DNA of 50,242 nucleotides from a bacterium (GCA_016290135.1 JAEESW010000014.1:1-50242), one strand, 5' to 3'. Shown: positions 15,362-29,511, counted from the stretch's first letter. Numbers and translations are program-made. The notes: a model not told the origin generated them from the sequence alone.

Positions 15362-17716
15362 CTACATTCCGATCGCCTTGCCGATGAGATATACAGCAAG
15401 TGAACAGAGCCATGCGATCACGCACTGCCATACGACAACGCCTGCAGCCCATTTTGCACCGAGCTCGCGCTTTACTGAGGCGACAGCCGCAACACACGGA
15501 GTATAGAGCAGGCTGAAGACAAGAAGACTTGCAGCAGTGAGACTCGTCATCATAGTTTCAACGCCGCCTGCGAACAGGATCTCAAGAGTCGAGACCACAC
15601 TTTCCTTTGCCATGAAGCCGCTGAAAAGCGCAACGACGATCTGCCAGTCACCGAGTCCTATCGGTTTCATGACCGGAGAGATAAGCCGAGCAACAGATGC
15701 GAGCATACTAAGTTCGGCATCCTCGACCAACTGAAGTTTCCAGTTGAAGCTCTGCATGAACCACACAACGATCGTTGCAACAAAAATCACCGTGAAAGCC
15801 CTTTGCAGGAAATCCTTCGCCTTTTCCCACAAAAGCTGCGCCGTATTCCGCACACCCGGCATGCGGTAGTTAGGAAGCTCCATTACGAAAGGCACCGCCT
15901 CGCCTTTGAAAAGCGTTCCTTTGTATAAAAACGCAATAAGTATCCCGACAAGTATCCCCAAAAGATAAAGGCCTGTCATGATGAGTCCGCCGTGTTTCGG
16001 GAAGAATGCGCTTACGAAAAAGGCATAGATCGGAAGTTTTGCCGTACAGCTCATAAAAGGAGTGAGAAGTATCGTCATTTTTCGGTCTCGTTCGCTCGGA
16101 AGCGTCCTTGTCGACATTATGGCAGGAACAGAACAGCCGAAACCGACCAAAAGAGGAACGATGCTCCTGCCCGAAAGTCCGATCTTGCGCAGCAGTTTAT
16201 CCATAAAAAACGCGACACGAGCGATGTAGCCTGAATCTTCGAGCATTGAAAGAAAGAAAAAGAGCGTCACGATTATCGGCAGGAACGAAAGGACGCTCCC
16301 AAGCCCCGCAAAAATGCCGTCAATGATCAGGCTGTGAAGCACCTCGTTCACTCCTGCAGCCGCCAGACCGGCGTCAGTCACTTCCGTGAGACGGTCGATC
16401 AAACTCTCCAGAAGTTCCTGCAGCCACGCGCCGATAACATTGAACGTCAGGTAGAACATACTTCCCATGATCGCGATAAAACACGGGATAGCCGTCCATT
16501 TTCCTGTCAGCACATTGTCGATCTTCTGACTTCTCGCGCTCTCTTTGCTTTCGTGCGGCTTTTTGACAGTAGCTGAACACAGCCTGTAGATAAAAGAGAA
16601 CCTCATATCGGCTATTGCCGCGCTCCGATCGAGACCACGCTCGCTCTCCATCTGCATGACGATGTGCTCAAGAGTCTCTTTTTCGTTTATGTCAAGGTCG
16701 AGTTTATGCAGGATCTGTTTGTCATCTTCCAGAAGTTTTGTCGCTGCGAACCGCACCGGGACACCTGCTTTTTCGGCATGGTCTTCGATCAGGTGGATCG
16801 TTCCGTGAAGCGCACGGTGGACTGCGCCGCCGTTGTCATCCTTGCCGCAGAAATCCTGACGCAGCGGACTTTCCTGAAATTTTGCGACGTGGATCGCGTG
16901 AGAAACCAGCTCTTCGACTCCCTGCCCCTTTTTCGCAGATATCGGAACGACGGGCACACCGAGCAGCGATTCCATTTTGTTCACATCGACCGAACCGCCG
17001 TTTGCCGTAACTTCGTCCATCATGTTGAGGGCGACGACGAGCGGGATGTTCAGCTCTAAAAGCTGCATCGTCAGATATAAGTTGCGCTCGATATTTGTGG
17101 CGTCAACGATGTTGATTATCGCGTGCGGCTTTTCGTTCAGGACAAAATCTCGCGAGATCAGTTCCTCGGCAGAGTAAGGCGACATTGAGTAAATGCCTGG
17201 CAGATCGGTGATCTGCGTATCCGCGTGCCCTTTGATGGCTCCCGATTTTCTGTCAACAGTGACGCCGGGAAAGTTCCCGACATGCTGATTTGATCCGGTG
17301 AGGCGGTTGAAAAGCGTCGTCTTTCCGCAGTTCTGGTTCCCGACAAGTGCAAATGTGAGGACTGTGCCGTCAGGAAGCGGGTTTTCGCTCTCTTTGTCAT
17401 GGAATTTCCCGCTCTCTCCAAGGCCGGGATGTTCCGTGGAAAGCGGACCTGCGTCCACCTGGTTCTGCCGGAGCGCGGGATTCGCCGCATCCGCCTCAGT
17501 TACTTCGATCTGCTCTGCATCCGCCACACGCAGTGTCAGTTCGTATCCGTGCAGCCTGAATTCCATCGGATCTCCGAGAGGGGCGTATTTTACGAATGTT
17601 ATCTCTGCTCCCGGAATTATCCCCATATCAAGAAAATGCTGACGGAGCTCTCCGTTTCCGCCGAGTTTTACGACTCTTGCGGTCTCTCCGGTCTTTATTT
17701 CGCGCAATGTTGTCAT
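15362..17716 (-). CDS. feoB: ferrous iron transporter, FeoA-FeoB fusion
   Basis: This 784-residue protein carries a FeoA SH3-like domain at residues 1-75 (LREIKTGETARVVKL, then YAPLGDPMEFRLHGYELTLR), joined by a linker of about 50 residues to a full FeoB. The G domain has GNQNCGKTTLFNRLTGSNQ, the switch PGVTVDRKSG, DLPGIYSMSPYS and NMMDE. The membrane domain has two Gate repeats, including FGCSVPAIMSTR and the late YTPCVAAVASVKRELG. FeoB imports Fe2+ across the inner membrane. The TTAG-N6-CTAA box and TTGACA about 65-85 bases upstream suggest iron-dependent control. The 54-residue Cys-rich protein follows directly. Confidence 0.95.
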   Translation of the reverse strand: MTTLREIKTGETARVVKLGGNGELRQHFLDMGIIPGAEITFVKYAPLGDPMEFRLHGYELTLRVADAEQIEVTEADAANPALRQNQVDAGPLSTEHPGLGESGKFHDKESENPLPDGTVLTFALVGNQNCGKTTLFNRLTGSNQHVGNFPGVTVDRKSGAIKGHADTQITDLPGIYSMSPYSAEELISRDFVLNEKPHAIINIVDATNIERNLYLTMQLLELNIPLVVALNMMDEVTANGGSVDVNKMESLLGVPVVPISAKKGQGVEELVSHAIHVAKFQESPLRQDFCGKDDNGGAVHRALHGTIHLIEDHAEKAGVPVRFAATKLLEDDKQILHKLDLDINEKETLEHIVMQMESERGLDRSAAIADMRFSFIYRLCSATVKKPHESKESARSQKIDNVLTGKWTAIPCFIAIMGSMFYLTFNVIGAWLQELLESLIDRLTEVTDAGLAAAGVNEVLHSLIIDGIFAGLGSVLSFLPIIVTLFFFLSMLEDSGYIARVAFFMDKLLRKIGLSGRSIVPLLVGFGCSVPAIMSTRTLPSERDRKMTILLTPFMSCTAKLPIYAFFVSAFFPKHGGLIMTGLYLLGILVGILIAFLYKGTLFKGEAVPFVMELPNYRMPGVRNTAQLLWEKAKDFLQRAFTVIFVATIVVWFMQSFNWKLQLVEDAELSMLASVARLISPVMKPIGLGDWQIVVALFSGFMAKESVVSTLEILFAGGVETMMTSLTAASLLVFSLLYTPCVAAVASVKRELGAKWAAGVVVWQCVIAWLCSLAVYLIGKAIGM

Positions 17717-17779
17717 ATTTTATGCCTTAAAAAATTTTTCAAAATTAAAGAACTTCCAAATTAGAGTAGAAAATAGTTG

Positions 17780-17800
17780 TTAGCAGAGACTAATTGTCAA
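17780..17800 (-). promoter_or_regulatory. putative metal-repressor operator and -35 box of the feoAB fusion gene
   Basis: The palindrome TTAG-CAGAGA-CTAA occupies 17780-17793. One base further, on the minus strand, is TTGACA (17800-17795). This layout is identical to that before the second feo operon (operator at 23673-23686), with the same half-site, one-base gap and -35. The palindrome would sit in the -35/-10 spacer. No clear -10 hexamer was found. The half-site TTAG/CTAA resembles DtxR-family metal regulators, but the regulator is inferred. Confidence 0.65.
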
Positions 17801-17826
17801 GGAAAAATGAAAAAAATGATAAAATT

Positions 17827-17844
17827 GTCTTTTAGCAGGAAGAC
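17827..17844 (-). terminator. possible terminator after the porin gene
   Basis: On the minus strand GTCTT and AAGAC form a short 5-bp stem with an 8-base loop, followed by AATTTTATC and further T-rich sequence. It lies between the porin stop and the feoAB promoter. The stem is short, so confidence is low. Confidence 0.3.
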
Positions 17845-17862
17845 GAAAAAATCTGTTTGTTT

Positions 17863-19212
17863 TTATTCTTTTGTCTCTTCCCAGATGAAATCGAATGCGC
17901 CGCTCAGAGCAAGTGCGATGGAGTGGCTGTCAAGTGACTCGGAAACAGTCCCGTTCTTTTCGCCGTATCCGTGGAATGTGGTTTTGTTGAAGTCATAGTC
18001 GAGCTCGATCCCTGCGTAGTCGCAGAAGTTGTAGATGATTGCAATGTTCACACCGAGATTCGAATCATCCTTGCTGACTATATTCTCTGCATAGAACGGA
18101 GCTTTGAAGTATGAAACTCTCGCCATCATGTCAACATCCCAGAGCGTTGCGTAAGGCATTGCGAAAAGTCCCCATGAAGTCAATGAGGAATCAGCATCTT
18201 TTACGCCGTCGGAGATAAGTTTGCCGTTTTGGAAATCGGGGTTGTAAAGAGCGCGGTGAGTAAGGCCGAATTCGCCTTTGAAGCCGACGGAAATGTCATC
18301 GTTTACGTTGTAGCCGAGATCTGCGCCGATCGCCATGAGGACATTGTTTTTATCTTGATCAAGATCTTCGCCGTTTTTGTAGGAAGCGATCTCTTCTTCT
18401 TCAAAATTGTAAACATCGAAGCCGTAGTTTCTGTAAGCCTTGCCTACAACAAGAGAAGCTGCTGCGGTAGCGTAAAAATCGCCGGTTTTGTTGAAACGGA
18501 TATCAGCCCCGAATGCCGGAGTGCGGAACAGGTTCGCTTCTCCGTCAAGCATCGTTTCGTTTGCTCCGTTGAAGGCGAAAAGTGTGACAGCAAGGTCGGA
18601 TTCTTTCGAGAAAATGAGGTCTATACCGAGAGAAAAGCCGAGATCGTTGAAAGCTCCGCCGAAAAAGTCTTCTTTTATCGCCGAATTTGCGAAGGCGACT
18701 TCATGGTCATATCCCGTTTCGATACCGAAAGGCATTTCGAATAGACCAGCCTGAAGATTGACATCGAGTCCGAAAGTTCCCGCCGCATTCCTGAACGATG
18801 GATGCTGCATCCTGAAAGATACGTTTTTGATGACATCGAGCGTCATTCTGCCTTCGTCATCGACCGATCCGAAATCGACCATGGCGCGGCCGTTGAACAT
18901 TCTGTCTCCGCCCTGCAGGTCAAGGATCAGGTTGTCGAGACCTATCTCGTAGCTCTCTTCCTTGTTGACATCGCCGTCTTCAATGTTGATCCCTGCCGAA
19001 ACTCCGCCGAAAACAGTGGCGTTGAAATAGGGTCTGCGCTCAAAAGCGAGTTTGTTCTCTTCTTCTTCCGCTTCAGCAGCTTCTCCCTCAGCGGGAGCTT
19101 CTGCAGCCTCGACTGTTGATTCTTTTGTTTCTTCGTTTGCCTGAGATTCCTGAGCAAACAATGAAAAAGATACTGCGCAGCAAATCATTGCCGCAAAAAA
19201 GAAATTACGCAT
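17863..19212 (-). CDS. porin-like outer-membrane beta-barrel protein
   Basis: This 449-residue protein has a signal peptide with cleavage expected after SLFA (about residue 20). An Ala/Glu-rich acidic stretch (about 20-52) follows, then alternating beta-strands through to the C-terminus. Segments such as LDVNLQAGLFEMPFGIETGYDHE and GIELDYDFNKTTF recall OprO/OprP-type phosphate or anion porins, where an outward-facing strand follows the 'GxFxxPFG' motif. The end is not a classic aromatic barrel terminus. GGAGG lies 6 bases before the ATG. It stands between the two feo loci on the same strand, so a role in metal or anion uptake is possible but not shown. Confidence 0.75.
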   Translation of the reverse strand: MRNFFFAAMICCAVSFSLFAQESQANEETKESTVEAAEAPAEGEAAEAEEEENKLAFERRPYFNATVFGGVSAGINIEDGDVNKEESYEIGLDNLILDLQGGDRMFNGRAMVDFGSVDDEGRMTLDVIKNVSFRMQHPSFRNAAGTFGLDVNLQAGLFEMPFGIETGYDHEVAFANSAIKEDFFGGAFNDLGFSLGIDLIFSKESDLAVTLFAFNGANETMLDGEANLFRTPAFGADIRFNKTGDFYATAAASLVVGKAYRNYGFDVYNFEEEEIASYKNGEDLDQDKNNVLMAIGADLGYNVNDDISVGFKGEFGLTHRALYNPDFQNGKLISDGVKDADSSLTSWGLFAMPYATLWDVDMMARVSYFKAPFYAENIVSKDDSNLGVNIAIIYNFCDYAGIELDYDFNKTTFHGYGEKNGTVSESLDSHSIALALSGAFDFIWEETKE

Positions 19213-19287
19213 GAAAAACCTCCAATAAAAATAAGTTGTTAAAAAAATCCAAAAAAATAATTGTTGATTTGCATTTTTACATCATCC

Positions 19288-20085
19288 TTACCACTCGAAT
19301 GTTGCCCAGCGGTCATTCATTTTGGGCAGCAGCAATGCGAACAGGTTTCCGCGGATGCTGTGTTTTTTCATCTCTTCGTTGAAGCTGTGTTCTTCGACAA
19401 GGCGGAATCCTTTGACGAGATCGGCTATTTCCTGACCAGAATCGGTGCCTGAGACAAAATGGGCGTTTGTGTTTTTTATGGTATCGTGAAACTTCTCGTT
19501 TTTTACCATAAGTTTGTTGTTCTGCTCTGCGATAAGTGTTCCTCCGTCGGGGAAATTTTCCTTCAGGATATTCAGAAAAGTCCGTATCTGTTCCATTGTG
19601 ATATACATGAAAAGGCCTTCAGCAAGAAAAACGGGCTTTGTTTTTTTCTCTGAAAGGGCTTCCTGAACGGGTTTGCACCAGTCTGAATCCAATATGTTCC
19701 CGGCAATCATAGTCACTCTTTCTTTTTCAGGGAAAGCCTTTTTTCTTGCAGTGATCACATCAGGGAGATCCAGGTCGAACCAGAGGATTTTTCCGTTGTC
19801 AACGCGGGAGAACCGGTCGTCGAATCCGGCACCGAGATTGATGACCACAGTTTCGGGAGTTTTTATGATGATTTCCTTCAGCTGTCTGTCGAGCATGATC
19901 GTGCGGGCAATAACTCCTTCATGAGACATAAACTTGTCATATTTTGAGATGTCAATGCCTATAGTTTCAACGATCTCCACTGCTTTTTTGTCGGTTACAC
20001 GCGGATTTTCACGCCTGCTTTCGCTTGCTTTTACCGCCAGCGGAATTAATGCCGTTGTCTGAACATCGCCTAACTGCAAATTCAT
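19288..20085 (-). CDS. LCM-family SAM-dependent methyltransferase
   Basis: This 265-residue protein resembles the leucine carboxyl methyltransferase/PPM1-like family. Markers are TALIPLAVKASESRRENPRV near the N-terminus, VVINLGAGFDDRFSRVD for SAM binding (about residues 85-100), FDLDLPDVI, and FLAEGLFMYI. Bacterial members methylate small molecules or polyketide-type products, and the substrate here is unknown. The ATG at 20085 was preferred because GGAG lies 6 bases upstream. The ATG at 20097 has no ribosome site. It lies between the feo operon terminator and the porin gene. Confidence 0.85.
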   Translation of the reverse strand: MNLQLGDVQTTALIPLAVKASESRRENPRVTDKKAVEIVETIGIDISKYDKFMSHEGVIARTIMLDRQLKEIIIKTPETVVINLGAGFDDRFSRVDNGKILWFDLDLPDVITARKKAFPEKERVTMIAGNILDSDWCKPVQEALSEKKTKPVFLAEGLFMYITMEQIRTFLNILKENFPDGGTLIAEQNNKLMVKNEKFHDTIKNTNAHFVSGTDSGQEIADLVKGFRLVEEHSFNEEMKKHSIRGNLFALLLPKMNDRWATFEW

Positions 20086-20131
20086 CTTTGTCTCCATGTC
20101 ATGAAATTTTAAAAGAGCAGATCAAAAAACG

Positions 20132-20188
20132 AAGGGAAAGAATCAATAGGGACGGTGCGGTTTATTAGTCCGAAAAGTTCTTTCCCTT
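20132..20188 (-). terminator. long inverted repeat, terminator of the second feo operon
   Basis: AAGGGAAAGAA (20132-20142) and TTCTTTCCCTT (20178-20188) are a perfect 11-bp inverted repeat, with an inner GGAC/GTCC pair (20150-20153 and 20168-20171). On the minus strand the stem is followed by CGTTTTTTG, the T-run of an intrinsic terminator. It lies 36 bases past the end of the feo operon. Confidence 0.55.
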
Positions 20189-20223
20189 TTATTACACGGA
20201 GGAGGTTGTTAGTTTTGTAAATA

Positions 20224-20586
20224 TCAACGTTTTGCAATGCTCTTTATTCCGTATCCTGTGCTTTTGATTACTTTCCTCAATTCTTCCTCATCGAGCGGCT
20301 CGTCGCTTGTTATCTGCGTGAGGCCTGTTTTGTGCGACGATTTGACCTCTTTTACCTTGAAATTGTTGCGGATCGCGTCGTTGACATGACTTTCGCACAT
20401 GCCGCACATCATTCCTTCGATTTCAAGGACTGTCAGGTGTTTTGAAGTGTGGCAGCTTCCTGACATCGGGCAGCAGCCGCAGTTGCATCCGCATGAGGAT
20501 TTTCCCTGTTTCTTGTTTTTTACAAGATTGAGGATGATGGCGGCAACCACCGCCATCAATATTGCCAGCACAAGGATTGTTCCCAT
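20224..20586 (-). CDS. FeoB-associated Cys-rich membrane protein fused to a heavy-metal (HMA) domain
   Basis: This 120-residue protein has one N-terminal membrane helix (about 3-22) and a Cys cluster CGCNCGCCPMSGSC (32-45) like that of small FeoB-associated proteins. A C-terminal domain of about 70 residues with the HMA metal-binding signature MMCGMC (about 58-63) and the SSHKTGLTQI / VIKSTGYGI ends of that fold follows. Its ATG shares one base with the feoB stop (TAATG), so translation is coupled. HMA domains usually bind Cu+, Zn2+ or similar ions. The fusion suggests metal hand-over or sensing at FeoB, which is inference. Confidence 0.85.
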   Translation of the reverse strand: MGTILVLAILMAVVAAIILNLVKNKKQGKSSCGCNCGCCPMSGSCHTSKHLTVLEIEGMMCGMCESHVNDAIRNNFKVKEVKSSHKTGLTQITSDEPLDEEELRKVIKSTGYGIKSIAKR

Positions 20587-23117
20587 TATTTACCTGCCGT
20601 AACTGAAAGTTTTGTCGCTTCGCTGTATTGCTTGAAGAAAAGCATGTAGATCATTCCTGCAAGGCAAGCGAAAGCGGCTATCATGAATATTATGTTGAAG
20701 AGAGAGAAGTTGCCGGTGAACAGGTTGCCGAACTGGTTGATCATAAGTGCGACTGCATAAGCGAAACCGCACTGGTAGCCGATCGCGAACCAAGTCCATT
20801 TCGTGTTGTTCATTTCACGCTTGATAGCACCGATCGCAGCAAAACACGGAGCGCAGAGAAGGTTGAAGACCAGGAACGAATATCCGGTGATTCCCGTGAA
20901 TGCCTGAGCCATAGCTTCCCAAGCCGTCATATCGCCTGCGCCGTAGAGAATGCCCATCGTGCCGACGATGTTTTCTTTTGCGACAAGTCCGGTGACCGAT
21001 GCGACAGCCGCCTGCCAGCTTCCCCAGCCGAGCGGAGCGAAGATCCATGCAATGCCTTTGCCGATATATGCTAGGATCGAAGAATCGAGCTGGTCTTCGG
21101 CGAGCATTCCGAAACCTTCGTCAGTCCAGCCGAAGAATGAGGTGAACCATACGAGGATCGTTGAAACAAGGATGATCGTTCCCGCTTTTTTGATGAACGA
21201 CCAGCCGCGCTCCCACATCGATCTGAGAACATTTCCGAATGTCGGCATGTGGTAAGCAGGAAGCTCCATTACGAAAGGAGCAGGGTTGCCTGCGAACATT
21301 TTCGTCTTTTTGAGCATGATGCCGGAGATGATGATCGCTGCCATTCCGACAAAGTATGCGCTTGTAGCGACCCATGCCGAGCCTCCGAAAATCGCACCTG
21401 CAACCATCGCGATGAAAGGAACTTTCGCGCCGCACGGGATGAAAGTCGTCGTCATGATCGTCATCCTGCGATCACGCTCGTTTTCTATAGTTCTGCTTGC
21501 CATGACGCCGGGGATGCCGCAGCCGGTTCCTACGAGCATCGGAATGAACGATTTGCCCGAAAGTCCGAATTTTCTGAAGATCCTGTCAAGGACGAAAGCG
21601 ATACGCGCCATATATCCGCACGCTTCGACAAATGCGAGGAGGAAGAAGAGGACGAGCATCTGCGGGACAAATCCGAGGACCGCGCCGACTCCGGCAACGA
21701 TACCGTCAAGGATGAGCCCTTTGAGCCACTCTGCGCAGCCGATCGCATCCAGTATTTTTTCAACGAGAACGGGAACTCCCGGGATCCATGCGCCGTAATC
21801 AGCCGGATCAGGTTCGTCGAATCCTTTTTCCTCGAAGTAGGAGAGAGCCTCTTTGAAAGACATTCCGTTTGCTTCGTTTTCCGCGTCGTCTTCCGCCACT
21901 TTGACTTCGCCGTCGTAGAAAACGTTGATATTTGAATGTTCGAGAGTTTCCTCGTCTTCGACGTCGTAAGCTATATACTGTTTTTCGGGCTGGAGTTCTT
22001 TTGCGGCTTTCATCGTTTCTTCCGCATTGATTTCTTCTTCGCCTTCTTCATTTTTTGCTGTTACGATGACTTCATAAGCGTCGAAAGCGTTGTGTGCTGC
22101 GCCGTATTTTTCAGCTTCTTCCTCGTAGTCGCCTGTTCCGATCCCGAACATGTGCCAGCCGTCGCCGAAAAGACAGTCGTTTGCCCAGTCAGTAGCGTCC
22201 GCGCCGACCGTTACCATTGAAATGTAGTAAATAAGGAACATGACGATCGCGAAGATCGGAAGGCCTAACCAGCGGTTCGTCACGATTTTATCGATTTTGT
22301 CAGAATTGGAGAGCTCGCCTGCATTCGCCTTTTTGTAGCTCGATTTCAGAATTTCGGCGATGTAGATGTAACGCTCGTTCGTGATGATGCTTTCCGCGTC
22401 GTCGTCGAGCTCTTTTTCGGCAGCCTTGATGTCCGCTTCGATGTGGTCGAGAAGACTTTTTTCGATTTTGAGCATTTCAAGGACTTTGTCGTCACGCTCG
22501 AAAACTTTGATCGCGTACCATCTCTGCTGTTCTTCGGGCATACCGTGGACAACAGCTTCCTCGATGTGGGCTATTGCGTGTTCGACAGGGCCCGAGAAAG
22601 AATGCTGAGGCAGGGTTTTTGTCTCTTTTGCCGCTTTGATTGCTGCTTCCGCCGCTTCTGTAATTCCGTCGCCTTTGAGAGCGGAAATCTCGACAATTCT
22701 GCATTTGAGCTGTCTCGAAAGTTCGGCAACATCTATTTTATCGCCCGATTTTTTGACGAGATCCATCATATTGAGAGCGATTACGACCGGAATCCCGAGT
22801 TCGACAAGCTGAGTCGTAAGGTAAAGGTTTCTTTCAAGGTTCGTCGCGTCGACGATGTTCAAAATTGCGTCGGGACGCTCGCCGATAAGATAGTTTCTCG
22901 CAACGACTTCTTCCAGAGTATAAGGTGAAAGCGAGTAGATTCCGGGAAGGTCCGTAATGATAACGCCTTCATGTTTTTTGAGTTTTCCCTCTTTTTTCTC
23001 GACTGTGACTCCCGGCCAGTTTCCAACGAACTGATTTGACCCTGTGAGAGCATTGAAAAGGGTGGTTTTTCCCGAATTCGGGTTTCCCGCAAGTGCGATT
23101 CTGATTTTTTCAGCCAT
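20586..23117 (-). CDS. feoB: ferrous iron transporter FeoB (second copy, with acidic insertion)
   Basis: This 843-residue protein has a G domain at the N-terminus (GNPNSGKTTLFNALTGSNQ, PGVTVEKKEG, DLPGIYSLSPYT, NMMD), a helical regulatory region, and a membrane domain with two Gate repeats (VGTGCGIPGVMASRTI; APCFAAIGAIKREM). After the first membrane helix it has an acidic insert of roughly 110-120 residues (about 330-445, with GDYEEEAEKYG, EEGEEEINAEE, EDEETLEHSN). By position this probably faces the periplasm. The first feoB in this window lacks an equivalent. It is preceded by two feoA genes, 11 bases from the nearer one, and followed by the Cys-rich/HMA protein. Confidence 0.95.
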   Translation of the reverse strand: MAEKIRIALAGNPNSGKTTLFNALTGSNQFVGNWPGVTVEKKEGKLKKHEGVIITDLPGIYSLSPYTLEEVVARNYLIGERPDAILNIVDATNLERNLYLTTQLVELGIPVVIALNMMDLVKKSGDKIDVAELSRQLKCRIVEISALKGDGITEAAEAAIKAAKETKTLPQHSFSGPVEHAIAHIEEAVVHGMPEEQQRWYAIKVFERDDKVLEMLKIEKSLLDHIEADIKAAEKELDDDAESIITNERYIYIAEILKSSYKKANAGELSNSDKIDKIVTNRWLGLPIFAIVMFLIYYISMVTVGADATDWANDCLFGDGWHMFGIGTGDYEEEAEKYGAAHNAFDAYEVIVTAKNEEGEEEINAEETMKAAKELQPEKQYIAYDVEDEETLEHSNINVFYDGEVKVAEDDAENEANGMSFKEALSYFEEKGFDEPDPADYGAWIPGVPVLVEKILDAIGCAEWLKGLILDGIVAGVGAVLGFVPQMLVLFFLLAFVEACGYMARIAFVLDRIFRKFGLSGKSFIPMLVGTGCGIPGVMASRTIENERDRRMTIMTTTFIPCGAKVPFIAMVAGAIFGGSAWVATSAYFVGMAAIIISGIMLKKTKMFAGNPAPFVMELPAYHMPTFGNVLRSMWERGWSFIKKAGTIILVSTILVWFTSFFGWTDEGFGMLAEDQLDSSILAYIGKGIAWIFAPLGWGSWQAAVASVTGLVAKENIVGTMGILYGAGDMTAWEAMAQAFTGITGYSFLVFNLLCAPCFAAIGAIKREMNNTKWTWFAIGYQCGFAYAVALMINQFGNLFTGNFSLFNIIFMIAAFACLAGMIYMLFFKQYSEATKLSVTAGK

Positions 23118-23588: not shown

Positions 23589-23652
23589 TGTTTTCTCCAC
23601 AAAAAGATTACCAATATTACATTTCTCATTATATTCAATGAGCAAAACCAAA

Positions 23653-23666
23653 TTAGCTGACGCTAA
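23653..23666 (-). promoter_or_regulatory. putative metal-repressor operator 1 of the second feo operon
   Basis: The palindrome TTAG-CTGACG-CTAA lies 20 bp (two helical turns) from a second copy at 23673-23686. It covers the expected transcription start, so binding there would block initiation. Confidence 0.6.
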
Positions 23667-23693
23667 CAATAATTAGCCAAGACTAATTGTCAA
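23666..23693 (-). promoter_or_regulatory. promoter of the second feo operon with operator 2 in its spacer
   Basis: On the minus strand TTGACA (23693-23688) is followed after 16 bases by TATTGT (23671-23666). The spacer contains the palindrome TTAG-CCAAGA-CTAA (23673-23686). The stretch GACTAATTGTCAAG is identical to that before the first feo locus. Confidence 0.65.
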
Positions 23694-23776
23694 GAAAAAA
23701 AATCTAAAAAAATGACCGAGCCTCTTTAACGCCCGCTTCTCACAAGGCTTTCAGCGGTTTTTTCGAAAAAAAACCC

Positions 23777-23805
23777 TTTACAAAAACATTTTTTTTCACT
23801 ATTAA
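23777..23805 (+). promoter_or_regulatory. putative promoter of the VTC/adaptor operon
   Basis: TTTACA (23777-23782), a 17-base spacer and TATTAA (23800-23805) lie about 37 bases before the GTG start at 23842, within an A/T-rich stretch. No palindromic operator was seen here. Confidence 0.45.
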
Positions 23806-23841
23806 CTTATGTTATTGTTTTTTGTTAATAGAGGTTGCTTC

Positions 23842-25860
23842 GTGTATAATGACAAAATCCACGGGCTCGGTCTGCTTTTCACATTCATTGCGCTTTTGAT
23901 AACGACTGTTGTCTGCATAATCATCTATTCGGGCGGCGAAACTACGACTTTTCAAGGGTTTGCCGAATCGAATGAAACAATAATAAATTCAGAGACTCCG
24001 GTCAGCATCAAAAAGGTCCTCGTCATGGAGGGCGACACTGTCTACAAAGGGCAGAAACTCGCCGAGCTTGAAAGCCAGGAACTTGCGCTCCGCATAGCCG
24101 ATATCCGCAGCCAGCTGCTTCAGATCGAGACAAAACGCGGAATGAGCGAAAAAGAGATCAAATCAAAAATCCTCCAGAACAAGGCGGAGGAACGGGCTGT
24201 AATAAGTGAACTCCGCGCACAGATACAGACCCTTGAAAACCAGCTCAAGATCAACAAAGTGCTCGCCGGCGGGCTTAAAAGCGTGAAGATATCCGATTCG
24301 GTCAAAAATCCGATAGAGATCCAGATCGAATCTCTTGAATCGGCCATTGTAGAGCGCAGAAAGGAGTTTGCCGAGATCAACCGGATGTACACAAAAATGC
24401 TTGAAAGCGGTGAGACTCCCGAAGGGGCGCAGGAAGAAAAACTGAAAGCCGAACTTGAATCGCTTGAGCGGCAGAATTCCGATATGGCAGTATATGCTCC
24501 CTTCGAAGGAATAATCGGCAGCGTATTCATCAAAAACGGGAACGGTGAGAAAGTTTTCTTCAAAGGGGGAGAAAAGATCGCAGCCTACAGCCCTATCCTT
24601 TCGATCGTCAACAAAGAACCGTCGTTTGTAAAAGGCTACATTCCCGAATCGCAGTTTTCCGTCATCAAGACAGGCGATAAAGTAACGGTATCGAACTCAC
24701 ACTCGCTGCAGCAGGTGACAGGCGTGGTCACAGGGCTCGGAGGCAGGATAATCCAGCTTCCGGTCCGCCTTCTGAGAAACCCGAACATCGCGCTCTGGGG
24801 AAGAGAGATCGTTATAAAGATCCCTGAAGACAACGGATTCATTCTCGGAGAAAAAGTTTCGATCACATACTCTCAGAATGTCTTGGGCAATCTTGCAAAG
24901 GTCTTTTCGGCGACACAGCCCAAACTTCTGGCCAAGGAAAAAAACAAAGATGAACTGAACAGATCACAGAATGACCCGGATCCAACGCGGAATGACACTG
25001 CGGAAAGAAATGCAGAGACGCTTTCTGAGACATCAATACAATGGAATGGGAACACAAAGATCGAGGCTTCAGGCGCAGTCTTCGTTCCTGAAACCGGAAA
25101 ATTTCTGGTGGTTTCGGATGAGACCGAAAAAAAGACGCCCCTTCTTTTTGAAATCGGGAAAAACGGCGAAACGAAAACCATTCCGATAAAGAATCTAAAT
25201 AAGATCAATGATCTGGAATCAATAGCGAAAGAACGTGAAAACACTTATCTCATAATGTCGTCGCTCAGCTACTCCAAAAAGGGAAAACTTAAACCTGAAA
25301 GAAGGATCCTCGCAAGGGTCTCGCTTTCAAGCGGCAATGCTGAATTTGAAAAAGCAGTCGATTTTTACGAGATCCTCAGGAATTTTGCCGAAAGATATGA
25401 TACTGACGAAGCAAAGTTCATAAAAAAAGGGATCGCCGGAAGATCGATCGACATCGAAGGGATGTCCGTTCTCGAAGATTCGCTTTTCATCGCTTTCAAA
25501 GATCCGCTTTCGGAAAAAGGGAAAGGGGTGATTTTCGAAATAAGCGGCTATGAAACGATTTTTGCCGAAAAAAGGATCGCCGCAGAACAAATAAAGACAA
25601 TTTCTGTGGATCTGCCGCCTGAAAGAAAGATCTCCGACCTGCATATACTTTCCAGGGACAGATTCTACTTCACAGCATCCTGCATGAGCGAAAAGTGCGG
25701 CGGGCTCTACCGCTTTGAAAACGGAAAAAGCGTGCCGCTGAAAGAGTTTCCCGAATTAAAACCTGAAGGGATCGCGCTTGATGACAGCGGAAATATTTTC
25801 ATATTCTTCGACCTCGGTCAGAATGACAACTCGAAATTTCTGAATTTGGGCAGGATATGA
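23842..25860 (+). CDS. HlyD-like membrane fusion protein fused to a DUF3616/SdiA-regulated-like domain
   Basis: The N-terminal part of this 672-residue protein is a periplasmic adaptor: one membrane anchor (about 8-30), a split lipoyl-like barrel (VSIKKVLVMEGDTVYKGQKLAELE ... YAPFEGIIGSVFIKNGNGEKV), a long coiled-coil hairpin (about 85-215) and a beta-barrel region (GYIPESQFSVIKTGDKVTVS). A hydrophilic linker (about 360-400) leads to about 270 C-terminal residues rich in beta-strands with repeated acidic-Gly motifs NDLESIA, DIEGMSVLEDSLFIAFKDP and KPEGIAL. These recall DUF3616 or SdiA-regulated/esterase-like propellers. I know no adaptor with such an extension. GTG start at 23842 has GAGG 7 bases upstream. 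It is first in a five-gene operon. Confidence 0.75.
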   Translation: MYNDKIHGLGLLFTFIALLITTVVCIIIYSGGETTTFQGFAESNETIINSETPVSIKKVLVMEGDTVYKGQKLAELESQELALRIADIRSQLLQIETKRGMSEKEIKSKILQNKAEERAVISELRAQIQTLENQLKINKVLAGGLKSVKISDSVKNPIEIQIESLESAIVERRKEFAEINRMYTKMLESGETPEGAQEEKLKAELESLERQNSDMAVYAPFEGIIGSVFIKNGNGEKVFFKGGEKIAAYSPILSIVNKEPSFVKGYIPESQFSVIKTGDKVTVSNSHSLQQVTGVVTGLGGRIIQLPVRLLRNPNIALWGREIVIKIPEDNGFILGEKVSITYSQNVLGNLAKVFSATQPKLLAKEKNKDELNRSQNDPDPTRNDTAERNAETLSETSIQWNGNTKIEASGAVFVPETGKFLVVSDETEKKTPLLFEIGKNGETKTIPIKNLNKINDLESIAKERENTYLIMSSLSYSKKGKLKPERRILARVSLSSGNAEFEKAVDFYEILRNFAERYDTDEAKFIKKGIAGRSIDIEGMSVLEDSLFIAFKDPLSEKGKGVIFEISGYETIFAEKRIAAEQIKTISVDLPPERKISDLHILSRDRFYFTASCMSEKCGGLYRFENGKSVPLKEFPELKPEGIALDDSGNIFIFFDLGQNDNSKFLNLGRI

Positions 25861-27095
25861 GAAGTTTTTTTTCGTTTTTCTTCATTTTTTTTCTCCCTTT
25901 TATCCTTTTTTGCAAAGATCTGACTATCGCTGAATACATCGAAGCGGCAAAAGACGACCCGCGCCTGAAATCAAAAAAGGCCATGTCGGATTCAATCGAT
26001 GATTCAAACGACACTCCCGGCATAAAAGGACTCGAATTCAGAAGCGAAACGGGGAATTTCGACATTATGGAGCAGAAATATGCCCTCAGGCTCTATTTCA
26101 AAGGATTCGGGGAAACAAGATCTTCACGGGAATTCGTTAAAAACATGCAGGCTCTGCATAAACTCGATTATATATCGGCACGCTCCGAAGTCCTGTTTGA
26201 AAGATACCGTGCCGTCGTCACCTACATCCAGCATAAAAAGGAGCTCAAGATCATAGAAACGATGCGTGAGCTTCTCAACGACAAGCTGTCGGTCACAGAA
26301 AAGATCGGCGACATAACCGGCGAAACGACAGAGATCGACAAAATGGATATCGAAGACAAAATCACTGAGATCGAAATGCGCAGGATCGAGGTGGAATCAA
26401 CGGTCGAAACAATAGAAGCCATCGTAAAAAACGATATGGGCGAAGAGATGACGCCCGCTTTCGATAAAGAAAAAATAGTCTCTGTCGGAGATATCGAAAA
26501 ATTTGCGCAGTCTTTGGATGATATCCACGGCGCGACCAAGGCAGAAAGCAGCTATCAGACACTCAGAGAGATAGTCGCCGGGAACGAGATCGCCCTGGAG
26601 CAGGCAAAAGAACGTGACTGGCTCAAATACATAGCCCTCGAATACAATACCGATGACCGCACCAAAAGACCGTCGCGCGGATTTTCGATAGGTTTCGCGA
26701 TCACTATCCCGGGATTCAAAAACAATCAGACTTCCATTATAAAAAAGCAGATCAAGTCTCTTGAACAGAATTCCGATTTCGAATCGCAGAGCCGCATCAA
26801 GGAAACGGAGATCCGTATCGCCCTTCTGACGCTGAAACGTGAGATCAGGCAGTATAAGACCCTTGCCGAAAGAAAAGACGATATCGAGAAAAGCGGTATC
26901 CTTCAGAAATATTCTTCGATCGAAGGCGTGAACCCGATGATGGTCATAAAACTGAAAGAAAAGATCCTGAAAAAGGAGCTGAAACTGGCTGAACTCGAAT
27001 TCAAGATCTACGAAAAATACATAAATCTGGCCTATCTCATGGGGCTCTACGAAGACTGGCAGTCAGGCAACTTTCTCAGCGGGGAAGGCAGATAA
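25857..27095 (+). CDS. TolC-like outer membrane efflux protein (OEP family)
   Basis: This 412-residue protein has a strongly hydrophobic signal peptide (to about residue 20). It has the OEP-type start LTIAEYIEAAKDDPRLKSKK, and two halves of long alpha-helical coiled coil with an internal EIALEQAKERDWLKYIALEY...GFSIGFAITIPGF repeat typical of TolC-like trimeric channels. It is somewhat shorter than TolC. Its ATG overlaps the adaptor stop (ATGA), so adaptor and channel are coupled. No RND, ABC or MFS pump is encoded in the operon. Confidence 0.75.
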   Translation: MRSFFSFFFIFFLPFILFCKDLTIAEYIEAAKDDPRLKSKKAMSDSIDDSNDTPGIKGLEFRSETGNFDIMEQKYALRLYFKGFGETRSSREFVKNMQALHKLDYISARSEVLFERYRAVVTYIQHKKELKIIETMRELLNDKLSVTEKIGDITGETTEIDKMDIEDKITEIEMRRIEVESTVETIEAIVKNDMGEEMTPAFDKEKIVSVGDIEKFAQSLDDIHGATKAESSYQTLREIVAGNEIALEQAKERDWLKYIALEYNTDDRTKRPSRGFSIGFAITIPGFKNNQTSIIKKQIKSLEQNSDFESQSRIKETEIRIALLTLKREIRQYKTLAERKDDIEKSGILQKYSSIEGVNPMMVIKLKEKILKKELKLAELEFKIYEKYINLAYLMGLYEDWQSGNFLSGEGR

Positions 27096-27916
27096 TGGCA
27101 GCACACGCTCAAACCGACATCCCTTCAGTCCTGCAGAGATTCGAGTTCAAATACCACATCCCGCGCTCGATGATCCGGCCGATATCAGACTTTGTTAAGG
27201 CCTACTGCTTTCTGGATAAATACTCGGAGATGTCGCCGAGCGGATTTTACCGGATAAACAACCTCTATTTCGACTCCCCTTTTCACACTTTCCTCAACAA
27301 CAGACTTGAAAAAAAGGAAAACCGCTTCAACATGAGGATCCGTTCCTACGGTGAAGATCCCAAGCCGCCATACTTCTGGGAGATCAAGTGCAAATTGAGG
27401 GAAAACAGGCAGAAATTCAGGGCAAAAGTAAAATCGGACGAGATAGAAAGACTTTTTTATTCGCCGAAAGCGTCCGACGAACTCGGTTTTTCAGGGACCG
27501 ATGCTAAAAACATGGATCTTTTCCAGTCCCTCGCCCTTTCCTACAACGCGGAACCGCAGGTCATAACCCGCTACGACAGAATGGCGTGGATAAGCGAGAC
27601 CGACGAATACGCAAGAGTCACTTTTGACGCGAATCTCCAATGCGCCGAAGAGCATACATTCAATGTCCGTCCGTGCCAGGAAAGAATGGAAAGTTATGAT
27701 ACCGCAACTATTTTCAGGCACGAAGCCCACTGCATACTTGAACTTAAAGGACAGGTGTCACACCTTCCGCTGTGGATGGTCGATCTTGTCAGGACTTTTG
27801 ACCTCAAAAGGGTCGCTTTTTCAAAATTCAGATACGGAATGATGCGCATTTTAAGGAACAACTACCCCGACAGTGTCTGGTTCAATGTTTTTGACCAAGG
27901 AGATATATATGAGTGA
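27095..27916 (+). CDS. VTC-domain protein (polyphosphate polymerase-like)
   Basis: This 273-residue protein is a stand-alone VTC domain, the tunnel-shaped fold that makes polyphosphate from ATP in yeast Vtc4. Visible active-site elements are RFEFKYHIP at the N-terminus, NNLYFDSP, the Arg pair in NMRIRSYGE, FWEIKCK with the Lys of the tunnel, CILELKG with the metal-binding Glu near 230, and VAFSKFRYGM with the late Lys. There is no membrane segment. It starts at the stop of the OEP gene and overlaps the DUF4956 gene by 8 bases. VTC and DUF4956 genes are known neighbours. That the enzyme makes polyphosphate here is inferred from these residues. Confidence 0.88.
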   Translation: MAAHAQTDIPSVLQRFEFKYHIPRSMIRPISDFVKAYCFLDKYSEMSPSGFYRINNLYFDSPFHTFLNNRLEKKENRFNMRIRSYGEDPKPPYFWEIKCKLRENRQKFRAKVKSDEIERLFYSPKASDELGFSGTDAKNMDLFQSLALSYNAEPQVITRYDRMAWISETDEYARVTFDANLQCAEEHTFNVRPCQERMESYDTATIFRHEAHCILELKGQVSHLPLWMVDLVRTFDLKRVAFSKFRYGMMRILRNNYPDSVWFNVFDQGDIYE

Positions 27917-28595
27917 TTTTCTGACGAACAACCTTTCTTCTTCATCGCTTTCATCGCTGAGCGTGATCTATTCGACTGCTCTTGCCTTCATACTTTCGGT
28001 CTCGATCGGTCTCACCTACATCAAGACTTTCCGCGGACTTTCATATTCGCGCAATTTCGTGCAGGCCATCATGCTCTGTTCGATAATCACTTCAATGGTC
28101 ATCCACGCGATAGGCGACAGCGTTGCGATCGGCATAGGCACTTTGGGCGCACTCTCAATCATCAGATTCAGGACGAACCTCAAAGATTCACGCGACATAG
28201 TCTTCATGTTCGCCGCGCTTTCCAGCGGTATAGCATGCGGAGTCGGTGCATACTTCATGGCTTTTGCCGGGATTCTCCTCTTTAATATAGCAGCATTCAT
28301 CCTCTATCTCTCGCAGCTCAGCAAAGCCTCATATTTCGACGGGATACTCCGCTTCAACATCGGCAGCGACGAACTCGACATTCAGAAAATGGCAGAGATC
28401 CTGAAAAAGCACTGCAAAGTATTTGCCCTCATCACCTTGAAAGAGATTGCGGTCGGCGAAAGACTTGAATACGCATACCACATAAAAATGAAGCCGGAAT
28501 CGACTTCGGAAGAACTTGTGAGCGAGCTTAAAAAAGAGATTCCGGCAATGAACAACGTGTCGCTTCTCCTGCAGGAAACAACAGTAGAGCTTTAA
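27909..28595 (+). CDS. DUF4956 membrane protein
   Basis: This 228-residue protein has four hydrophobic segments in its first 150 residues. Between the second and third lies the conserved IGDSVAIGIGTLGALSIIRFRTNLKDSRDIVFMFAALSSGIACG region of DUF4956. A cytoplasmic C-terminal domain of about 80 residues follows. DUF4956 proteins are typically encoded next to VTC-domain proteins and may be their membrane partner. The start at 27909 has AAGGAG 6 bases upstream. Confidence 0.88.
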   Translation: MSDFLTNNLSSSSLSSLSVIYSTALAFILSVSIGLTYIKTFRGLSYSRNFVQAIMLCSIITSMVIHAIGDSVAIGIGTLGALSIIRFRTNLKDSRDIVFMFAALSSGIACGVGAYFMAFAGILLFNIAAFILYLSQLSKASYFDGILRFNIGSDELDIQKMAEILKKHCKVFALITLKEIAVGERLEYAYHIKMKPESTSEELVSELKKEIPAMNNVSLLLQETTVEL

Positions 28596-28599
28596 AAAT

Positions 28600-29511
28600 A
28601 TGAAAAACGAAAAATTTCGGAAAATCATAGAGATCTCACTTTTTATTTTTTTATTCTTTGTAATATTTTCAAGAGTTTATCTTGAAACTGCAGTGTTTGC
28701 CAAAAAACCGTTCTTCTCATATTTCGTAGCGACACACCACTGCGCGTGGTTCACTTTCGTATTCTTCTATTTCGCTCTCTGCGCACGCTATATCCTCGGG
28801 CTCAAACCTGACAAGATCCCCTATCTCGCTCTTTTCAGTCCTGTGATATACATTCCGCTGATTCATGCATTGATTTCCGGCTCAAAACTCAAGCTTCAGT
28901 ACATACGCGGAGACTTTTCCAAAGCGCTTTTCGACATTCTTACTCTCTACAAATTCAGCGAACACGACAGTTTCTTCTTCTTCGAAATGCTCGCCATTCT
29001 CGTTATTTTCGCAGTTCTGAGCTACATTGTCTCACGCAGCGTTTTGAGGACTGTCCTCAACATAATCGTAGGTTTTTACGGCAGCATGTTCCTTGCCGGA
29101 CTTCAGCTTTTCGGGGTGGCACGGCGCACAAAGGCGTATTTTCCGCTGAACACAGTTTTCAAAAACCACATCCTCCTTTCTTTAGTCTATTTCACGGCCG
29201 TGATCCTGGCATTTTCAATATGCTTCTTTCCTGAGATCAAAGAACTTGTAAAACGCAATTTCAAGCCTTTGGGAATAGCTTTGGTTCCAGGGATCCTCGC
29301 TCCGCTTGTCATGTTCTACTTCTGGCAGAAACCGTTGAATATTGCAGATCTCATCCTGCTGACAGTGACCTGCACAACGACTCTCTTTTCTCTGATTTTT
29401 CTGCAAAAAGAAACCAACCTGCCGGGCGGACGTTTTTTCCCGTTCGTTTTTTCTGTTTTTCCGCTTGTTTTGATATTAGGAATAATATTCAGAGATAAAG
29501 TTTTTATTTAA
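28600..29511 (+). CDS. polytopic membrane protein of unknown function
   Basis: This 303-residue protein has about eight predicted membrane helices with short loops (KKPFFSYFVATHHCAWFTF, SGSKLKLQYIRGDFSKALFD). I recognise no transporter or enzyme motif. It starts 4 bases after the DUF4956 stop with only a weak ribosome site, so it probably relies on coupling. It ends tail-to-tail with the lipoprotein gene (stops overlap). As the last gene of the VTC/adaptor operon it might be the inner-membrane component that the adaptor and channel otherwise lack. That is speculation. Confidence 0.7.
   Translation: MKNEKFRKIIEISLFIFLFFVIFSRVYLETAVFAKKPFFSYFVATHHCAWFTFVFFYFALCARYILGLKPDKIPYLALFSPVIYIPLIHALISGSKLKLQYIRGDFSKALFDILTLYKFSEHDSFFFFEMLAILVIFAVLSYIVSRSVLRTVLNIIVGFYGSMFLAGLQLFGVARRTKAYFPLNTVFKNHILLSLVYFTAVILAFSICFFPEIKELVKRNFKPLGIALVPGILAPLVMFYFWQKPLNIADLILLTVTCTTTLFSLIFLQKETNLPGGRFFPFVFSVFPLVLILGIIFRDKVFI

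Follow-up and report, generated by a model that had tools for sequence, protein, structure and literature searches.

The operon described here raises the question of what an adaptor and an outer-membrane protein are doing next to a putative polyphosphate polymerase when no pump gene stands beside them. The window, meaning the whole stretch of 50,242 nucleotides that was analysed (GCA_016290135.1 JAEESW010000014.1:1-50242), belongs to a 2.47 Mb genome (98% complete) of a rumen bacterium. Its closest relatives with a name are MAGs from rumen and gut, of which two carry the label bacterium UBP6. The operon consists of five genes, A-B-C-D-E, on the plus strand, with ORFs at 23842-29511. A and B overlap by 4 bases, B and C by 1 and C and D by 8, and a 4-base gap separates D from E. 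All ORFs, the overlaps and the gap of the five tightly packed genes reported in the first-pass annotation were reproduced at the same coordinates. The features are as follows.

23842..24939, plus strand: A, adaptor part; N-terminal TM helix, barrel-sandwich, long alpha-hairpin and beta-barrel of an EmrA/MacA-like membrane fusion protein
25066..25860, plus strand: A, C-terminal beta-propeller of the YjiK/SdiA-regulated/phytase-like type
25857..27095, plus strand: B, OEP/TolC-type outer-membrane protein with a signal peptide (PF02321)
27095..27916, plus strand: C, predicted VTC-domain polyphosphate polymerase, tunnel domain only (PF09359)
27909..28595, plus strand: D, DUF4956 membrane protein (PF16316)
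28600..29511, plus strand: E, protein with 8-9 TM segments, genus-specific accessory (no Pfam family)

None of the five proteins scored above the cut-off of an NCBIfam equivalog. Pfam searches of the window revealed no RND, ABC or MFS pump genes beside the operon, and the remaining transporters of the window (two FeoB, MATE, MlaE and a Na/Ca exchanger) are encoded away from it.

The gene A (23842-25860) has a GTG start, and an in-frame ATG is present upstream at 23809. Its product is above the Pfam cut-offs for HlyD_D23 (PF16576) and HlyD_3 (PF13437). The AlphaFold model (mean pLDDT 88) predicts a TM helix, a long hairpin with helices at residues 78-143 and 156-212, a barrel and then a propeller; the closest PDB folds in a fold search were EmrA (4tko), EmrAB-TolC and MacA. 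The HlyD-like adaptor with a large C-terminal domain that had been read from the sequence is thus recovered, the large domain being a predicted beta-propeller. R301, P306, R308, L309 and G319 are among the best-conserved columns, and several of them lie in the barrel strands that follow the hairpin. These strands are near the usual contact of an adaptor with its inner-membrane partner and may serve such a contact here. The propeller matches DUF6929, Phytase-like and SdiA-regulated weakly, the latter two below their Pfam cut-offs (phytase-like 17.1 bits, cut-off 27.6; SdiA-regulated 17.0 bits, cut-off 21); standalone propeller relatives at L063 and L151 are above the SdiA-regulated cut-off. Its profile matches YjiK (3qqz) with E 0.0024, and the acidic residues E408, D457, E459, E539, E642 and D657 are conserved in an alignment of 42 copies. 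The product of the gene B matches OEP (PF02321) with 25.2 bits against a cut-off of 22, so that the earlier assignment as a TolC-like protein holds, though narrowly. B is the conserved neighbour of A in the genus, in the sister genera and in distant loci.

The gene C encodes a protein of 273 aa in which PF09359 is the single domain (146.3 bits, E 1.4e-42, cut-off 23); no SPX domain, Vtc1-type TM domain or TM segment was found by Pfam and hydropathy. The first match of its profile is yeast Vtc4 (2.8e-18). The catalytic residues of Vtc4, K200, R264, R266, K281, K294, R361, R373, E426, K428 and K458, are matched in 10 of 10 cases and are invariant in 45 sequences, which bears out the intact active-site motifs claimed for this enzyme. 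R264, R266 and E426 are the residues that were mutated to inactivate VTC in yeast, where synthesis is coupled to translocation via a basic channel (PMC9911596). The product of C is predicted to use ATP for the synthesis of polyphosphate or of a related phosphate polymer. Neither PPK1 and PPK2 nor a clear PPX/GppA was found in the UBP6 genus, which leaves VTC as its only recognisable polyphosphate polymerase.

The probable start of the gene D is the ATG at 27909, with GGAG upstream. The protein matches DUF4956 (PF16316) with 45.3 bits (cut-off 30.6), as do all 67 aligned relatives at E <= 0.01. The AlphaFold model (pLDDT 77.5) predicts five TM helices and a C-terminal ACT/ferredoxin-like domain; rows from plasmids were left out of the alignment used for structure prediction. 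Counting residues from the codon that precedes the ATG, RFRT occupies 87-90; the motif is invariant in the 67-row alignment, in fuller form RFRT-x-KD, and is predicted to face the cytosol. A sequence search against solved structures gave no significant match. The fold search returned nothing below E 0.001, and the resemblance was limited to the C-terminal domain, which is similar to the C-terminal domain of MgtC (7qa5, TMt 0.60) and to ACT domains. The TM region is weakly alike to MgtC (PF02308, 18.9 bits, under the cut-off of 31.4).

The likeness to MgtC allows a reading in which the operon is a phosphate or energy sensor. D would act in an MgtC-like manner on phosphate uptake or ATP homeostasis, VTC would drain ATP or phosphate into cytosolic polyphosphate, and the adaptor, the OEP and the propeller would report periplasmic conditions. 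This reading draws on the MgtC-like TM region and ACT-like C-terminal domain of D, on the role of MgtC as a regulator in Salmonella, where it activates both PhoR and the uptake of phosphate (PMC6658541), and on the phosphate transporter genes (PHO4/PiT) that are sometimes linked, being found inside the operon or downstream of it in L055, L082 and L092. However, it is not evident why a regulator should require a complete adaptor hairpin and an outer-membrane channel, or the tight co-inheritance of adaptor and OEP with D described below, and we consider the sensor distinctly unlikely.

The gene E encodes 8-9 membrane segments according to hydropathy and belongs to no Pfam family. It is present only in loci of the UBP6 genus and is missing from the sister genera and every other locus. 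E was therefore rejected as a core inner-membrane subunit. The first-pass annotation had proposed the DUF4956 protein together with the last protein as the inner-membrane part of the system; D, which is always present with the adaptor and OEP, remains the candidate for this place, whereas E drops out.

The question of whether the genes belong together was approached by a neighbourhood survey. Of the 28 genomes covered in the phylum, 15 encode VTC, with one copy each. The other 13 VTC-bearing members of the genus share the order A-B-C-D-E (one of the contigs breaks off inside B), and two further genera of the phylum have A-B-C-D without E. This conservation of order indicates that the operon is not a chance arrangement. 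In the sister genus of L029 and L084, A has no propeller and the gene after D encodes a CotH lipoprotein; in that of L023 and L042, D is followed by a gene for a lipoprotein with a lamin-tail domain. L084 (SLGQ01000232) is publicly labelled Sumerlaeota, while the genome survey places it, as G004, in the window's own family.

The product of D was then scanned against 84,980 species genomes, which gave 80 loci, 68 of them outside the genus; being the closest matches to the query, these 68 are a biased sample of DUF4956. Profiles derived from the UBP6 genes were used to call presence within four genes of D. D was called in 66 outside loci, and A and/or B accompany it in 65 of these, the sole exception being a contig of 3.1 kb that breaks off at D. 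Of the 68 loci, 45 have C in the neighbourhood. The survey could have separated the adaptor and OEP genes from the VTC-DUF4956 pair; instead they are conserved with DUF4956 in at least 12 phyla, usually together with VTC. Most loci have the order D-A-B-C, and A-B-C-D is found in UBP6, several Desulfobacterota and Calditrichota. The position of D on either flank of A-B-C implies that the linkage outlived rearrangement. In a maximum-likelihood tree of 72 DUF4956 proteins, a quick search in which some deep joins are unsure, all 46 proteins from adaptor and OEP loci form one clade (SH-aLRT 99), apart from the DUF4956 proteins of A-C-D, CotH-type, OMP-type and monoderm loci. The clade includes UBP6, Desulfobacterota, Calditrichota, Fibrobacterota, Delongbacteria, Planctomycetota, Myxococcota (NCBI label), Pseudomonadota, Campylobacterota, Nitrospirota, Spirochaetota, Bacteroidota and Balneolota, and the intermixing of these phyla within it suggests cassette-like transfer. 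In a methanotrophic symbiont of Bathymodiolus (L097:7441-15058), transposase-like genes lie between D and A and also split the OEP gene.

OEPs are often shared among pumps, and the adaptor and OEP might accordingly serve an unlinked pump and be mere neighbours of an intracellular VTC-DUF4956 module. This would not explain why 65 of 66 loci link them to D, why the linkage occurs in two gene orders, or why the D proteins of adaptor and OEP loci form a single clade. Furthermore, no RND, ABC or MFS pump family recurs near the core in the 68 outside neighbourhoods, which extends the earlier observation that the operon adjoins no pump. An unlinked pump is thus very improbable, and D is the sole inner-membrane protein always present.

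Among the 66 outside loci, the propeller is fused to the adaptor in 25, encoded by a separate neighbouring gene in 8 (including a broken copy in L090) and absent or not seen in 33. The occurrence of both fused and split forms supports a functional tie to the system, in which the propeller would be an accessory periplasmic domain. A hydrolase or sensor role of this domain could point to a purpose besides bulk export. Phytase-like proteins are encoded after C in L066 and L097. Related proteins are also found beside the system at L042:3063-5006, L053:2712-4883 and L091:2-1231; the L053 member has a PPDK_N (pyruvate phosphate dikinase ATP-binding) domain, and the lipoprotein-like signal of the L042 protein makes a phosphotransferase outside the cytosol possible.

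We propose that A, B, C and D constitute an envelope-spanning, polymerase-coupled export system for polyphosphate or a similar phosphate polymer, a model to which we give an even chance. The product of C would polymerise the chain from ATP at the cytosolic face. D would oligomerise into an inner-membrane conduit, the counterpart of the TM pentamer of yeast Vtc1/Vtc3/Vtc4, and A would join it to the OEP-type channel B. Polymerisation and the membrane potential would then drive the chain across the periplasm and the outer membrane, with no RND, ABC or MFS pump involved, and E would be a genus-specific add-on. We infer complex formation, cargo, direction and energy source from the observed gene content, co-inheritance and intact catalytic residues together with the predicted folds. 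Polyphosphate as the cargo is consistent with these data. The second weakness of the export model is the resemblance of D to MgtC, which is known as a regulator and not as a channel. Its main weakness is that D-A-B also occurs in loci where VTC is missing, which leaves room for a different cargo.

A strict requirement of D-A-B for VTC was rejected, as Saprospiraceae and Balneolaceae have D-A-B loci with no adjacent VTC. The trio may accordingly export a surface polysaccharide, a glycolipid or a small phosphorylated molecule, with VTC and CotH modifying or energising that cargo instead of producing it. Besides the persistence of D-A-B without VTC in Bacteroidota and Balneolota, such a role would fit the monoderm VTC-DUF4956-CotH sets that adjoin exopolysaccharide genes (PMC7112168; Pseudobutyrivibrio) and the Bacteroidota C-H-D loci that adjoin a sugar transferase or O-antigen ligase. 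However, the 68 loci show no recurrent glycosyltransferase or polymer synthase alongside D-A-B(-C), and VTC is the commonest enzyme partner. A different cargo is therefore rather unlikely in our view. PPK1 is encoded in 7 of 8 tested genomes that have D-A-B and no adjacent VTC. Saprospiraceae with D-A-B often have a distant VTC; in two Balneolaceae genomes with D-A-B no VTC was detected, and both have PPK1. As PPK1 is common, its presence is merely compatible with a polyphosphate cargo.

Two samples with less bias towards the query show that the adaptor and OEP do not accompany every VTC-DUF4956 pair. DUF4956 is rare in the Desulfobacterota group (7 in 297 genomes); of the seven loci, one was unreadable, three encode the adaptor, and in the other three VTC-DUF4956 is accompanied by CotH or an outer-membrane barrel. 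VTC was found in 23 of 118 Bacteroidota genomes. Twelve of the 20 loci read have this adaptor family, usually as A-C-D and some near a YjiK-like propeller gene, and the OEP gene is not adjacent in most A-C-D loci. The other eight lack the adaptor, and several of them have DUF2490 outer-membrane proteins. DUF2490 or other outer-membrane barrel genes lie beside VTC-DUF4956 at L163:5270-5938, L165:7364-7996, L170:4628-5335 and L171:4697-5884, where DUF4956 belongs to a distant clade. A universal linkage of VTC-DUF4956 to adaptor and OEP was consequently rejected. The association that had been suspected from the window extends across many diderm phyla and does not cover all diderm VTC-DUF4956 loci. 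These architectures imply that VTC-DUF4956 is the common core and that adaptor and OEP mark a large diderm branch.

The monoderm contrast consists of five plasmid records and two papers. DUF4956 matches were obtained on plasmids of Paenibacillus, Pseudobutyrivibrio, Nonomuraea, Planococcus and Enterococcus. VTC adjoins DUF4956 by profile in four of the five loci; in Nonomuraea, the profiles call VTC and CotH, and DUF4956 is identified by a tblastn match alone. The profiles detected no adaptor or OEP in any of the five, and CotH in all except Paenibacillus. A monoderm VTC-DUF4956 set next to pel genes has been described (PMC7112168), as has a similar locus of C. perfringens, NELoc-2 (PMC2879425). 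In the latter, two genes located between VTC and CotH, CP4_0461 and CP4_0464 (222-226 aa), are annotated as tubulin/FtsZ GTPase; position and size make DUF4956 their most likely identity. In this small sample, adaptor and OEP go together with an outer membrane, as an export role would predict.

CotH kinase genes lie beside 26 of the 68 outside loci, and a signal-type segment is present at the N-terminus of 28 of 30 complete CotH proteins, a set that includes those from monoderms. Within UBP6, 11 of the 16 genomes that have the system encode CotH, elsewhere or adjacent, compared with 0 of 11 that lack it; these counts are not independent, since the genomes are related, and they leave out one 77% complete genome with CotH and no system gene found. 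No CotH was detected in the operon of the window or in its 98% complete genome. There is no ATP outside the cytosol. Exported polyphosphate might supply phosphate or energy to enzymes there, and surface or periplasmic CotH-family kinases, which the chain would reach by way of D, A and B, might use it to phosphorylate surface proteins or polymers. The linkage and the signal segments motivate this idea without establishing it, and we regard it as unlikely.

The gene set resembles several known systems in part. As in the yeast VTC complex (Vtc1/3/4), a Vtc4-type tunnel polymerase with the same catalytic residues is combined with a membrane protein, and the coupling of synthesis and translocation in yeast is the model for the window set. 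Unlike its yeast counterpart, the product of C lacks SPX and the Vtc1-type TM domain; the membrane partner is a DUF4956 protein, the target would be the periplasm or the outside instead of the vacuole, and an adaptor and outer-membrane channel are added. The set shares with EmrAB-TolC and MacAB-TolC an adaptor of the EmrA/MacA fold, with TM anchor and long hairpin, and an OEP-type protein encoded alongside. It differs in having a DUF4956 protein at the inner-membrane position in place of an MFS or ABC transporter, a C-terminal propeller on the adaptor and a cytosolic polymerase in the operon. The monoderm VTC-DUF4956-CotH(-DUF4832) cassette, found beside pelDEADAFG and in NELoc-2 of C. perfringens, has the same adjoining VTC and DUF4956 genes, and its CotH partner is common to many diderm loci. 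The cassette lacks adaptor, OEP and propeller and has DUF4956 proteins of different clades, whereas the UBP6 operon lacks CotH. The proposed coupling of cytosolic polymerisation to export through both membranes recalls the synthase-dependent secretion of cellulose, alginate and Pel, but the window set has no glycosyltransferase or PilZ, and an HlyD-type adaptor and an OEP replace the TPR scaffold and beta-barrel. D itself is similar to MgtC/SapB in its TM region (a weak PF02308 match) and ACT-like C-terminus, and is distinguished by its score below the Pfam cut-off, the invariant RFRT-x-KD and the linkage to adaptor and OEP.

Taken as a whole, the set probably makes a polymer inside the cell and passes it through both membranes by an undescribed machine. 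No description of a VTC-DUF4956-adaptor-OEP set was found in the open-access literature; subscription papers could hold one. The same literature contained nothing relevant on bacterial polyphosphate export and little on DUF4956 or bacterial VTC-domain proteins, with no adaptor or OEP partner described. To our knowledge, bacterial VTC-domain proteins are almost unstudied, and we know of no explanation of how polyphosphate reaches the bacterial cell surface. The conserved set, with its dedicated DUF4956 clade and its spread over at least 12 phyla, suggests a specific, testable machine in which a DUF4956 protein stands where tripartite systems have the pump. DUF4956, a family present in bacteria of the gut and in a locus that enteritis strains of Clostridium perfringens carry, gains a concrete functional hypothesis, and the secreted CotH kinases are linked to a possible phosphate donor.

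The region upstream of the operon is occupied by minus-strand feo genes. Two distinct FeoB genes are located at 15362-23117 of the window. One of them has a fused N-terminal FeoA domain (15362-17716), and the second is followed by a gene for a small heavy-metal/FeoB-associated protein (20224-20586). Between the feo genes and the operon (23600-23800), the sequences TTAGCTGACGCTAA and TTAGCCAAGACTAA resemble operators of the DtxR/MntR type. They may serve feo only, because feo is not a neighbour of the operon in other UBP6 species.
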